Notes under the pieces: model-generated
The model's database searches: none
What the model saw: only the letters and a program-made list of their open reading frames with translations
What the model was told of the DNA's origin: nothing
Shown here: piece after piece, positions 8,875-14,599 of the stretch
Layout: every line of letters starts with the position of its first letter
Position numbering within the stretch: the stretch's first letter is position 1
Translations under genes and position numbers: made by a program
Origin: a virus
Virus record (IMG/VR): IMGVR_UViG_3300050015_000339
Coordinates: 1-38,952 of that record
Strand: one strand, 5' to 3'
Length of the DNA stretch: 38,952 nt

Positions 8875-8884
8875 GAGAAAAGGT

Positions 8885-8958
8885 GCCCCCGTAGTTCAGC
8901 TGGATAGAATTTAAGCCTCGCAGCTTTAAGGTCGTCGGTTCGAGTCCGACCGGGGGCA
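8885..8958 (+). tRNA. tRNA with Arg-like body and aberrant anticodon arm (apparent CGC)
   Basis: 74 bases. The acceptor stem (GCCCCCG/CGGGGGC, discriminator A), D arm (GTTC, AGCTGGATA, GAAT) and T arm (GTCGG, TTCGAGT, CCGAC) pair perfectly. The A in AGCTGGATA at position 20 and the overall body resemble bacterial tRNA-Arg. The anticodon arm is odd: a seven-base loop gives anticodon CGC (Ala codon GCG) but leaves a C-C mismatch closing the loop, and shifting by one base pairs the stem but leaves a six-base loop. There is no G3-U70, so alanine charging is doubtful. It has its own promoter on the strand opposite its neighbours. Confidence 0.8.
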
Positions 8959-9123
8959 TCTGCACAGTGACATTGCCTCTTGATTTCCTTACAGAATTGG
9001 CGTATACTGTGGGTGCGAGGCTTACATTCTGATCCACTGAATGGTCAACGGACCGAACTTCAAAGGGAAAGAAGGCACACAGGAGGAACATTGGGTTAAC
9101 CACCCCGCGCTTGCAGCCTTCGC

Positions 9124-10587: not shown

Positions 10588-12021
10588 ATGACCCACCGCG
10601 CCCTCATTGTAGCCATCGTATCCGGTCCGTCCCAGGCCACCGCCGATAAGGTCAGTATCCCCACCCAGCTCGCCGATTGCCATGCCGTGTGCGAGCGGCA
10701 CGGTTGGGAGGTCGTCTCCGAGGTGGTGATCCCTGGTCACTCGCGCAACTATGATGACCTTACCAAACTGGTAGCCGATTGCCCCGAGTATGGGCTAATC
10801 ATGCGGGCGATAACCGATAACACCATCACCCTGCTGGTCGCTTGGGCGTATGACCGCCTGTGGCGCACGGTTTCGCTCATGGCTCACGTCACCTCGATCT
10901 GCCGCCAGCATCGGGTGCAGGTCTACTCGCTCCATCAGTCATCCGAGCCTACCCTCGATGGCAGCACCCCCTTTTTCACTCGTGCCAGCGAGACGATATT
11001 CAGTCTGTTCGCCGAGCAGGAAAATGACGCGCGCAATTCTCGCGTATGCTCCGGTAAAAAAGGCGTCATCTTCAAGGGCGGGGTGCAGTATAACGACCGA
11101 CCGCCCTATGGCTATCTCAAGGCCGGCCGGCAGTCGATTGCCCCCAATCCCGTCACCGCGCCGGTGGTGGTGGTGATATTTGACCTACGCGTCAACCAGC
11201 GCCTGGGCTTCCACGCCATCGCCCGCGAGCTAAATCGGCGCATGATCCCCTCCCCGATGGGCGGTATCTGGAAACACAAGGCCATCATCGACATCATCCG
11301 CAATACGATCTACAAGGGCGAAACGCACTGGGGCGATGCGCGTTGCGAGCATGGCCGGCACACGCCGCTCGTCTCGCGTGAGATATGGGAGGCCGCTCAA
11401 ATCAACCAGATGGTATATCGCAATACCGGGCCGTTCCCCCGCCCCCTGGCCGGTCTTTGTCGTTGCGGCTATTGCGGTTACGCCATGGCCTACGAGCGCC
11501 CCCAGCCCCAAAAGTCCAAGCAGCTCCGCTGCGGTCATTATTTGTCAGGTGGCCAGTGCCAGCCTAACTCCGTGCGCGCCGATATTGTCGAGGACTTTGC
11601 GCGTCTCGAGATAACAAAAGTGCTTTCGGATCCGGCCGCCTTCCTGGCGTCAAGCGAATCCGATGTCAGGCGCGATGAGATTGGCGCCCGTCTCAACCAG
11701 ATCGATGTAGAGTTATCCTCCCTGGAGGACCGCAAACGCCGCGCCTATGCCGCCTACGAGAGCAAGGTGATCCCCCTCGAGGAGTATGCCGGCCGGCGCA
11801 AGGGTCTTGACGCACGTATCCTCGAGCTGGAGCAACAAAAAAGAGCGCTATCCTCCCAGGATTACGCCCTCTCGAGACTCACCACTAACCTGCAAACCTA
11901 TTCCAGCCGCGTCAACGACCTGGCCACCATGCCCGCCGACGAGCTGCACGGCATCTACCTATCCCTCATCCGCGAGATCATCGTCACCCGCGGCCAATCC
12001 CCCGTGATCCACTGGTTGTAG
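10588..12021 (+). CDS. Large serine recombinase (phage integrase)
   Basis: 477 residues with the three-part plan of large serine integrases. The catalytic domain (1-150) has the nucleophile region AIVSGPSQ with Ser12 and the DRLWR motif (Asp89, Arg90, Arg93). The recombinase domain (about 165-290) contains PPYGYLKAG and IIRNTIYKGE. The zinc ribbon (about 288-325) has CRCGYCG and RCGHYLSGGQC, followed by a coiled coil (about 350-430). It would integrate the phage and, with a directionality factor, excise it. Odd: the arginine two residues before the catalytic serine (YxRVS in relatives) is Ile10. It is the only long plus-strand gene. Confidence 0.93.
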   Translation: MTHRALIVAIVSGPSQATADKVSIPTQLADCHAVCERHGWEVVSEVVIPGHSRNYDDLTKLVADCPEYGLIMRAITDNTITLLVAWAYDRLWRTVSLMAHVTSICRQHRVQVYSLHQSSEPTLDGSTPFFTRASETIFSLFAEQENDARNSRVCSGKKGVIFKGGVQYNDRPPYGYLKAGRQSIAPNPVTAPVVVVIFDLRVNQRLGFHAIARELNRRMIPSPMGGIWKHKAIIDIIRNTIYKGETHWGDARCEHGRHTPLVSREIWEAAQINQMVYRNTGPFPRPLAGLCRCGYCGYAMAYERPQPQKSKQLRCGHYLSGGQCQPNSVRADIVEDFARLEITKVLSDPAAFLASSESDVRRDEIGARLNQIDVELSSLEDRKRRAYAAYESKVIPLEEYAGRRKGLDARILELEQQKRALSSQDYALSRLTTNLQTYSSRVNDLATMPADELHGIYLSLIREIIVTRGQSPVIHWL

Positions 12022-12057
12022 TATTGGTACTACCATCCAAATATGAGTACCAATATT
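12020..12057. other. Dyad at the integrase stop codon, attP candidate
   Basis: AGTATTGGTACT (12020-12031) and AGTACCAATATT (12046-12057) are inverted arms with one mismatch in twelve, spaced by 14 bases, and the left arm includes part of the TAG stop. Attachment sites of serine integrases are roughly 40-50 bp imperfect dyads next to the integrase gene. A terminator is less likely because no T run follows. Confidence 0.4.
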
Positions 12058-12117
12058 ACACTCTGACCATCTAGCGTTGCCGCTCCACGTTGCACAATCC
12101 ATTATACCACGGTTAAT

Positions 12118-12157
12118 GTTTCAATCCCCACCCAATCCGAAGATTGGGTGCAATTGC
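12118..12157 (-). other. Solitary CRISPR-repeat-like element
   Basis: Read on the minus strand, this 37-40 base element ends in GGGGATTGAAAC, the 3' end typical of many type I and III CRISPR repeats (8-base handle ATTGAAAC). It contains a perfect nine-pair stem (CACCCAATC and GATTGGGTG around a four-base loop, 12129-12150). Only one copy exists and no cas gene is present. No T run follows, so it is not a standard terminator. It lies between the convergent integrase and holin genes. Confidence 0.4.
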
Positions 12158-12165
12158 TAGAGGGG

Positions 12166-12198
12166 AGCCAGGCCCCGCCGCCCTAACGGAACCTGGCT
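12166..12198. other. Second hairpin in the int-holin gap
   Basis: AGCCAGG (12166-12172) and CCTGGCT (12192-12198) pair perfectly across a 19-base loop. No T run on either side. It could be part of the same small RNA as the CRISPR-like element on the minus strand. The remainder of 12058-12239 shows no gene; a minus-strand TATAAT occurs at 12101-12106. Confidence 0.4.
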
Positions 12199-12239: not shown

Positions 12240-12563
12240 CTATGGTATCGTCTTTGGCAGCCTGGCCGGGGTTCCGTTGTCAGTTATTTTGTATAGCAAT
12301 GTCGGACCGCCGCCACAAGCAATAGCCGTCAATAATCGTCCCAGCCATACCCATGCCGGCAAGAATCCTGGAAACGCATTCAATCCTGTCGCCCATCCCA
12401 CCAACCCGCCGATGACCAGCGACACGTAGGTTATCCACCAGGTATCCCATTTGAGTTTTAGGAATACCGGCGTGATGAACCAGTCGATGAGTTTAGTCAC
12501 GACCACACTCAAAACTATGAGCTGAACGAATACGGTCAACGCTACCACTAATTGCTGCTCCAT
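12240..12563 (-). CDS. Holin-like membrane protein
   Basis: 107 residues after a perfect AGGAGGT site. Three hydrophobic segments are visible: VALTVFVQLIVLSVVVT (about 7-24), WWITYVSLVIGGLVGWATG (about 42-60) and WLGRLLTAIACGGGPTLLY (about 73-92). The C-terminal tail is short and polar. Position just downstream of the endolysin and its membrane partner supports a holin that permeabilises the inner membrane to release endolysin. No exact holin family is assigned. Confidence 0.65.
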   Translation of the reverse strand: MEQQLVVALTVFVQLIVLSVVVTKLIDWFITPVFLKLKWDTWWITYVSLVIGGLVGWATGLNAFPGFLPAWVWLGRLLTAIACGGGPTLLYKITDNGTPARLPKTIP

Positions 12564-12976: not shown

Positions 12977-14599
12977 TTAGTTAGCTCGCCTAAATGATTT
13001 CACATTGCCCCAGTCACCCGTGATGCAGTACAACCCGTACTGCCACTGGCGATTAGTTGCCAACCTGTACGCCTGGCAGATATAGTTCACGCCCGCGATC
13101 TCGGTGGCGAACTCTCCACCGGCCGGCAGCAGACCCATCAGCGCCCCCGCCTTCTCCAGCGATGCCGCCGGATTGAGTGGGATGATATGCTGCTGCATCT
13201 CAACACCCAGCGCGACCTCGATCTCCGCCTGCGATACCAGGTTATTATCTAGTTGCGACTTGACCAGCCCTCTGAACCATGCCCAATTCGCAATCAACAT
13301 GGCGCCCGGGCACTCTTTCTCATCCCGGACCGCTTTGTGGTAGGTGAGCCGGTCTATCCCCAGGCCGGCAGCCTTCAGCATCACCGCCGCGCACCACACC
13401 GCGTTATCCAGCCGCTTACCGTCCGGCAGGTGGCTGGTAAAGTTTCCGACGATCTCGATATGCCTGGTTTGTCGGTTATTATCCGTTACCCCTATGCCGT
13501 CCTGGTTGAGTGGTGTAAATAGCCCGATCCCCACCTGGTCGACAAACGTGTGCGGGCCGCGATCCCATCCCCAGCTGGCGTAGGTGTTGCGCATGGACCC
13601 CTTCCAATAGTTCCACCCGCCCCACTGATCCCACAGCGCCTCATCCGGATCCTCGCTATGGTGCATGATCACCCAATCATATGTCCCCGCCAGATTCAAC
13701 CCTTCGGCGTACTTGCGAAAGTCTGCCTGGTTCATCTGCCGGCCATCGAACGCGAATACTACCGGCGGCGTTACCGGCGGCGTTACTGTTGCACTTTCCA
13801 TCTTGCTCACCACCTTCCCCCATATCGAATCCACGCGAAACTTTGCGAACTCTGCCTGCAGCCCATCGCCGGCGCTGAACACCACCGCCCCGATCACCCG
13901 CGGATACCGCTGAAGGAGCTGGTCATAGACACCAAAGTCCCCGATGATCTCATCCTCGTTGCAGGTGTACTGCCAACCCGGCCGGCCTTTGTATTTGACC
14001 TTGCCCTGGGCGTCCATACCATCTTCGACAATATCGCGTCCGCACTCGGTGATAGCGAGGTCGTGCTCCATCAACAGCGGGCTATGCACCCACCGCCCGC
14101 AATGCCAACTGTTGGCTATATCCGCCGTATCACTCCAATATTCGTGCAACCCAACTATGTCACCTGAGTGCATCGCATTCAGCGCGCCTGCATATTTCAA
14201 CACCACCGGCAGATCCGGCCGGCCCACCGACCAATCACCCACGCACACCGGGATATTGTCCACGTGTGCTAACCTGAGGAGCTCCACCAGGAATAGGTTG
14301 TACGCATCGGCCACCGGATCATCGATCTCGTTGTATGTTGACATCGCGCACCGCCCGCCGTAACCCAGGCATTGCAGCATCTCGCCGCGATATCGGTTGT
14401 AGAACCCTCGAGCATTGTTCACCGGATTATTCAACGGCTGGTCCCCCAGCGTTTTGCGCCAGATCATCAGTGTATTCGGCCCCACCTGCTGCCGTACCTG
14501 TCGCCAGTATTCCGGACTGACGTTGACTAGCTTGATTACGGGGCTGGGGCCATATGCCCCTGCGAACCCGCCAACCGTGTGCAAGCCGATTTTACGCAT
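12977..14599 (-). CDS. Two-domain endolysin: glycosidase-like plus N-acetylmuramoyl-L-alanine amidase
   Basis: 540 residues. Residues 1-265 resemble a TIM-barrel glycoside hydrolase: TYNEIDD (Glu91) fits an acid/base and AITECGRD (Glu185) a nucleophile. A short TVTPPVTPPV linker follows. Residues 283-445 fit an amidase_2/PGRP domain: VIMHHSE (His313-His314), HTFVDQVGIGLFTPLNQ, a metal-ligand His380 in RHIEIVGN, and ECPG where the family usually has a Cys or His ligand. The last 90 residues may bind cell wall. Two cutting activities in one lysin; its stop overlaps nothing but lies 45 bases before the next gene. Confidence 0.8.
   Translation of the reverse strand: MRKIGLHTVGGFAGAYGPSPVIKLVNVSPEYWRQVRQQVGPNTLMIWRKTLGDQPLNNPVNNARGFYNRYRGEMLQCLGYGGRCAMSTYNEIDDPVADAYNLFLVELLRLAHVDNIPVCVGDWSVGRPDLPVVLKYAGALNAMHSGDIVGLHEYWSDTADIANSWHCGRWVHSPLLMEHDLAITECGRDIVEDGMDAQGKVKYKGRPGWQYTCNEDEIIGDFGVYDQLLQRYPRVIGAVVFSAGDGLQAEFAKFRVDSIWGKVVSKMESATVTPPVTPPVVFAFDGRQMNQADFRKYAEGLNLAGTYDWVIMHHSEDPDEALWDQWGGWNYWKGSMRNTYASWGWDRGPHTFVDQVGIGLFTPLNQDGIGVTDNNRQTRHIEIVGNFTSHLPDGKRLDNAVWCAAVMLKAAGLGIDRLTYHKAVRDEKECPGAMLIANWAWFRGLVKSQLDNNLVSQAEIEVALGVEMQQHIIPLNPAASLEKAGALMGLLPAGGEFATEIAGVNYICQAYRLATNRQWQYGLYCITGDWGNVKSFRRAN

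Follow-up and report, generated by a model that had tools for sequence, protein, structure and literature searches.

In type I-C CRISPR systems, crRNA processing is carried out by Cas5d. Several viruses are known to carry solitary CRISPR repeats whose RNAs act as anti-CRISPRs (Racrs); the published examples bind the Cas protein responsible for crRNA processing and lock it into a dead-end subcomplex (PMC10651486). RacrIC1, the type I-C member, from a prophage of Bifidobacterium pseudocatenulatum, lies downstream of a phage gene, 11 nt behind acrIC5 and on the same, mapped transcript, and it restored phage infection in PAO1::IC when its activity was tested (PMC10651486). RacrIF1 belongs to another subtype, involves Cas6f and has a known promoter; like other viral solitary repeat units (SRUs), it is a single repeat that acts by repeat mimicry outside of any array and away from cas genes (PMC10651486). 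In CreTA, an ectopic single repeat with a spacer-like part forms a guide aimed at a toxin promoter (PMC9458426).

Here we describe a 37-nt unit from an environmental phage that shares with RacrIC1 its type I-C repeat character, its solitary and intergenic position in a phage, its sense orientation and its location downstream of a phage gene, and with RacrIF1 and other viral SRUs its single repeat lacking an array or cas genes. In contrast to RacrIC1, it lies 85 nt behind a holin-like gene and is known from sequence; and whereas RacrIF1 has Cas6f and a defined promoter, Cas5d would be the expected partner here and no promoter was found. From its sequence features and from the analogy with RacrIC1, which provides a type I-C precedent for the earlier note's statement that solitary phage repeats can encode RNA anti-CRISPRs, we consider the unit a candidate phage-encoded type I-C solitary repeat unit acting as an RNA anti-CRISPR. 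This is the best explanation of the locus, and we give it about an even chance of being correct. On this likeliest reading, a lone-repeat decoy RNA would tie up host CRISPR proteins, a strategy already known in other phages.

A Complete Repeat Unit with a Perfect Stem and an Intact Handle

The DNA analyzed (hereafter, the window) is a 38,952-base virus record from IMG/VR that encodes tailed-phage genes, including a terminase, a portal, a capsid-protease fusion, a tape measure, an amidase and a serine integrase. Nearly all genes are on the minus strand; the integrase is on the plus strand, convergent with them. The sequence GTTTCAATCCCC is present exactly at position 12118 of the window, where the unit begins (Table 1). 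In its perfect 9-bp stem, residues 12129-12137 pair with 12142-12150 around a 4-nt loop, and the minus strand of the unit folds with an energy of −18.5 kcal/mol (z of −4.8), which none of 200 shuffles equaled. The handle, GGGATTGAAAC, is intact, and its last ten nucleotides, GGATTGAAAC, match the positions that are invariant in the repeat family described below. Cleavage by Cas5d, at the position expected from type I-C biology, would release GGGATTGAAAC as an 11-nt tag.

Table 1. Features of the unit and its surroundings in the window
Feature	Position	Strand	Basis or remark
Large serine integrase	10588..12021	+	PF00239, PF07508, PF13408; phrog_95, E 5.9e-67
Inverted repeat TGTAGTATTGGTACT/AGTACCAATATTACA spanning the stop codon of the integrase gene; arms of 15 nt, 93%	12017..12060	.	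Inverted-repeat scan
Solitary type I-C CRISPR-repeat-like unit, 37 nt, ATTGCACCCAATCTTCGGATTGGGTGGGGATTGAAAC	12118..12154	-	Covariance model R1; alignment to G141 array repeat
3' handle of the unit, 11 nt, GGGATTGAAAC; expected 5' tag of Cas5d product	12118..12128	-	Sequence; family alignment
Stem-loop within the unit (9-bp stem, UUCG tetraloop)	12129..12150	-	Folding; inverted-repeat scan; compensatory pairs versus other repeats
Strong hairpin on the 5' side of the unit, after the holin-like stop codon; no U tract	12166..12198	-	Folding; inverted-repeat scan
Holin-like hydrophobic protein, 107 aa, whose gene ends the leftward late run	12240..12563	-	85 nt upstream of the unit
N-acetylmuramoyl-L-alanine amidase (endolysin)	12977..14599	-	PF01510, phrog_3088

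The covariance model R1 was built from 27 repeats and units of other genomes and phages, with the window unit left out. Run on the whole window with filters off, R1 scored the unit at 50.6 bits with an E-value of 5.6e-13 and the next site elsewhere at 12.5 bits; E-values from R1 are approximate, yet the two bit scores are far apart. Because an independent model gives this single strong match, we judge the unit to be more than a chance resemblance. Indeed, on the strength of this match, 12118-12154 is a complete CRISPR-repeat-like unit and a homolog of true CRISPR repeats. The sole visible decay is at its first base, an A in place of G. This base apart, the perfect stem and the family-invariant last ten nucleotides of the handle argue against the unit being a relic or passenger devoid of present function, a repeat acquired by recombination with an array or chromosome of the host. 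That no host emerged from our searches would fit such a relic, as would the scatter of solitary I-C-like copies through some genomes, where several handles carry a point change; overall, we regard this origin as fairly improbable.

No second copy of the repeat was found in the window by repeat search or by the R1 scan, none lies at spacer distance from the unit, no array surrounds it in the window, and no cas genes were seen among the window proteins scanned. The earlier note had described a solitary element in the gap between integrase and holin, with no array or cas genes, a perfect nine-pair stem and a neighboring hairpin at 12166-12198, and all of this was borne out. Its span of 37-40 bp (12118-12157) proved slightly too long for what is a real element of 37 nt, and the minus-strand 3' handle that it ascribed to type I/III repeats is present, narrowed now to type I-C by the arrays of the family. 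The unit is intergenic, between 12021 and 12240, and outside any array or mini-array, the published 70% flank filter for SRUs having been approximated only. The published limits of SRUFinder are 90% identity, 90% coverage and 41.1 bits. In a comparison of this type, in which an array repeat from our own search (from the genome G141, below) replaced the repeat set of the SRUFinder authors, the unit exceeded these limits with 91.7% identity over 36 of 37 nt and 52.7 bits; across all 37 nt, identity is ∼89%.

The solitary state also bears on whether the unit might be a mini-CRISPR or a CreA-like guide, in which a crRNA-like RNA made of the repeat and its 3' flank would target another phage or a promoter. 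Ectopic single repeats with a spacer-like part do exist, as in CreTA (PMC9458426), and an extended −10-like TGGTATAAT lies within the 36 nt past the handle. However, a search of the rest of the window for TTC-PAM sites matching the seed of these 36 nt gave none, no second repeat is found at spacer distance, and the 393 spacers collected from the retrieved arrays match the window over 15 nt at most. Such a guide is very unlikely in our view. CreTA and the unit have in common a repeat outside an array, but CreTA has a guide to the toxin promoter, whereas the window unit has no such target. Membership of the CreA or mini-array class was rejected, there being no second (degenerate) repeat and no spacer target within the window.

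The Unit Belongs to a Family of Type I-C Repeats

A blastn search of a plasmid collection recovered an array of 17 copies in Deinococcus proteolyticus with a repeat of the same plan, which opened the family, and pattern scans revealed further arrays in Chloroflexota, Armatimonadota, a cyanobacterium, Geobacillus and others. These 37-nt type I-C repeats have the same length, stem, loop position and GGATTGAAAC handle as the unit; where checked, they lie in arrays next to I-C cas genes, whereas the window unit stands alone. The closest array repeat, GTTTCAATCCTCACCCAGTCCGAAGACTGGGTGCAA, is that of G141, a member of the Chloroflexota, which differs from the unit by 3 mismatches in 36 (33/36 identical). 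The G141 array adjoins cas3, cas5, cas8c, cas7c, cas4 and cas1c, with the Cas5 match at C3:80311-80916, and the remaining family arrays checked also adjoin type I-C genes (Cas3c/Cas8c/Cas7c). The family was therefore assigned to type I-C. In a type I-C array of G141 (C3:85824-86145), the outermost repeats differ from the other three in stem sequence.

The stem is conserved as a structure. Across 27 relatives, 98.8% of its cells are paired and both partners have changed at six of the nine pairs; none of the shuffles did as well, although they ignore relatedness. The unit has A-U, A-U and U-A at the three inner pairs that are variable within the family, and its differences from other members are mostly paired changes that preserve the 9-bp stem. 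Columns 28-37, which correspond to the last ten nucleotides, are invariant among the 27 relatives. The particular stem of the window unit, CCCAATC/GATTGGG, was absent from every array searched. A repeat with the identical stem was likewise found in none of 84,980 genomes, nor in the further genomes sampled or the viral contigs; the comparison with candidate-host CRISPR repeats that the earlier note had proposed gave no identical repeat in these genomes.

Type I-C repeats were also seen at both ends of two IMG/VR contigs, of 54.8 and 50.7 kb (L016/L022 and L017/L019/L021); three of these four ends have arrays and the fourth a single copy. The 50.7-kb contig has an additional solitary copy at ∼4.1 kb. 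Two origins would account for these contigs: insertion of a phage into an array, or a circular element opened within its own array.

Genomic Setting of the Unit

The integrase and holin-like genes are 218 bases apart, and three inverted repeats lie in this gap: 12017-12060, the 9-bp stem of the unit, and 12166-12198. Within this convergent gap, the sense strand of the unit is the minus strand, cooriented with late (lysis) transcription. The hairpin on its 5' side, which may form part of one RNA with the unit, as the earlier note suggested, has 12-nt arms that are 83% complementary and an energy of −24.3 kcal/mol (z of −2.5), and was not a terminator-like site in the terminator scan. The inverted repeat at 12017-12060 is a candidate attP of the serine integrase or, alternatively, a convergent terminator hairpin. 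A consensus scan, which is weak evidence either way, gave no sigma-70-type promoter or terminator around the unit. The holin-like protein had no family match in profile searches, and the neighboring small proteins had no NCBIfam Acr match; a nearby acr gene is enriched among Racr loci and is not required. No Shine-Dalgarno sequence with a gene lies behind the unit, where the only frame is one of 47 aa that has no ribosome site and is antisense to int.

A convergent gap beside an integrase is a place where terminators and attachment sites are both common, and a terminator or attachment-site arm could resemble a repeat by chance. The match to the 37-nt repeat model (E 5.6e-13) includes, however, ten invariant unpaired nucleotides, 12017-12060 is the better candidate for attP, and no U tract is present at the unit; we view a chance resemblance of this kind as extremely unlikely. 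As an intrinsic terminator the unit was rejected, no U run following the stem in the scan or in the sequence.

A Putative RNA Anti-CRISPR

In the anti-CRISPR reading, leftward read-through on the minus strand past the lysis genes would produce an RNA carrying the repeat hairpin and handle. Cas5d, the processing nuclease of a host type I-C system, would bind this repeat RNA and cut it at the 3' base of the stem. With no proper spacer-repeat unit before or after the hairpin, the bound Cas proteins would end in a nonfunctional subcomplex, and less Cascade would be left to act against the phage. The sequence shows a structured, solitary type I-C repeat homolog in the orientation of the late genes; we infer the later steps of transcription, Cas5d binding and inhibition. 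Counting against this reading, besides the chromosomal units described below, are the negative outcomes of the promoter and terminator scan, of the search for acr genes nearby and of the host searches, which yielded no matching I-C system, the key context for a Racr. If active, the unit would be a type I-C Racr from an environmental phage that has no close relative among the sequences searched here, in a class with few tested I-C members.

Three other phage contigs (L018, L020 and L023) carry solitary units of the same I-C family, in the sense orientation with respect to their genes. In L018 (533-798), a promoter-like TATGAT, the solitary I-C unit, a Shine-Dalgarno sequence and a 70-aa HTH regulator follow one another in this order, a layout reminiscent of anti-CRISPR loci that encode an Aca-like regulator.

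Solitary Type I-C Units in Chromosomal 5' Leaders

Solitary I-C-like hairpins were also found in the Chloroflexota genomes G137, G089, G064, G337 and G129 (L044-L057, L071-L074, L140-L145), where they lie in the sense orientation in gene 5' leaders. The genes behind these chromosomal units include metK, nusA, ispD, dnaJ, a gpmA-like phosphatase, ubiD, ctaG, PNPOx and NUDIX, among others. As a sense/antisense control, 22 chromosomal units from six Chloroflexota genomes were taken, and every frame with a start no more than 210 nt away on either side was checked with Pfam: a verified gene was present on the sense side at ∼15 of the 22 loci and on the antisense side at 1. A crude count of Shine-Dalgarno sequences, 9 sense versus 6 antisense of 16, was not discriminating, unlike the Pfam-verified count. 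G129 has an I-C array with cas genes plus solitary units with altered handles; no Cas5 match was obtained in G137, G064 or G337, which are fragmentary genomes.

Solitary I-C units are thus not always anti-CRISPRs. The earlier note had named the same hairpin at many nonphage sites as evidence that would speak against its reading, and at the level of the family this is in part what was found, in the chromosomal 5' leaders of some Chloroflexota. Because these chromosomal units sit in leaders of housekeeping genes, inferring an anti-CRISPR from a solitary I-C unit becomes less secure in general. The complication applies less to the window unit, since it lies at a transcript 3' end with no gene behind it, and an anti-CRISPR role, narrowed to type I-C, remains plausible.

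The leaders raise the alternative of a cis-acting hairpin, which Cas5d or another protein would bind or cut, thereby processing or regulating the transcript that carries it. In the window, the late transcript would have its 3' end trimmed by such a hairpin or be uncoupled from downstream sequence, host DNA adjoining the prophage end included. The excess of Pfam-verified genes on the sense side points in this direction, as do the phage units of L018, L020 and L023, which lie 15-19 nt ahead of a start codon. The window unit, however, is not in a 5' leader, is followed by no Shine-Dalgarno sequence and gene, and any regulation by the chromosomal units is putative in its own right; we consider a cis-acting role here unlikely, though by no means negligible. 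In a wider form of this alternative, the unit would belong to a class of I-C-repeat-derived hairpins that act in cis via Cas5d or another protein, with its chromosomal members in Chloroflexota 5' leaders and the same element taken up by phages, a placement that we hold to be rather improbable. Should the 5'-leader finding hold, CRISPR repeats would have been taken up as gene-control elements, which would be weightier than the Racr result, and solitary repeats in genomes with prophages would have to be scored as anti-CRISPRs with caution.

Host Searches and Other Features of the Phage

A blastn search of the phage collection gave only chance matches, and no relatives of the integrase and amidase were found among the viral contigs. 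A portal-protein search of 400 Chloroflexota returned a best match of 34% identity over about half of the protein, and indicated no host. Between 19890 and 36750 and elsewhere, the window contains many interspersed repeats between phage genes, of the CTCTGCGTCCTCTGCG.., CGTCATTCCGGCGAAGGCCGGAATCCATC and GTAGGGGCGGACC.. families, which is unusual for a phage. One tested motif of these repeats occurred in 0 of the 400 Chloroflexota and in 0 viral contigs, and the interspersed-repeat search gave one short plasmid match in Sphingopyxis. The window also carries, inside the phage, a tRNA-Ala with anticodon CGC (8884-8960).
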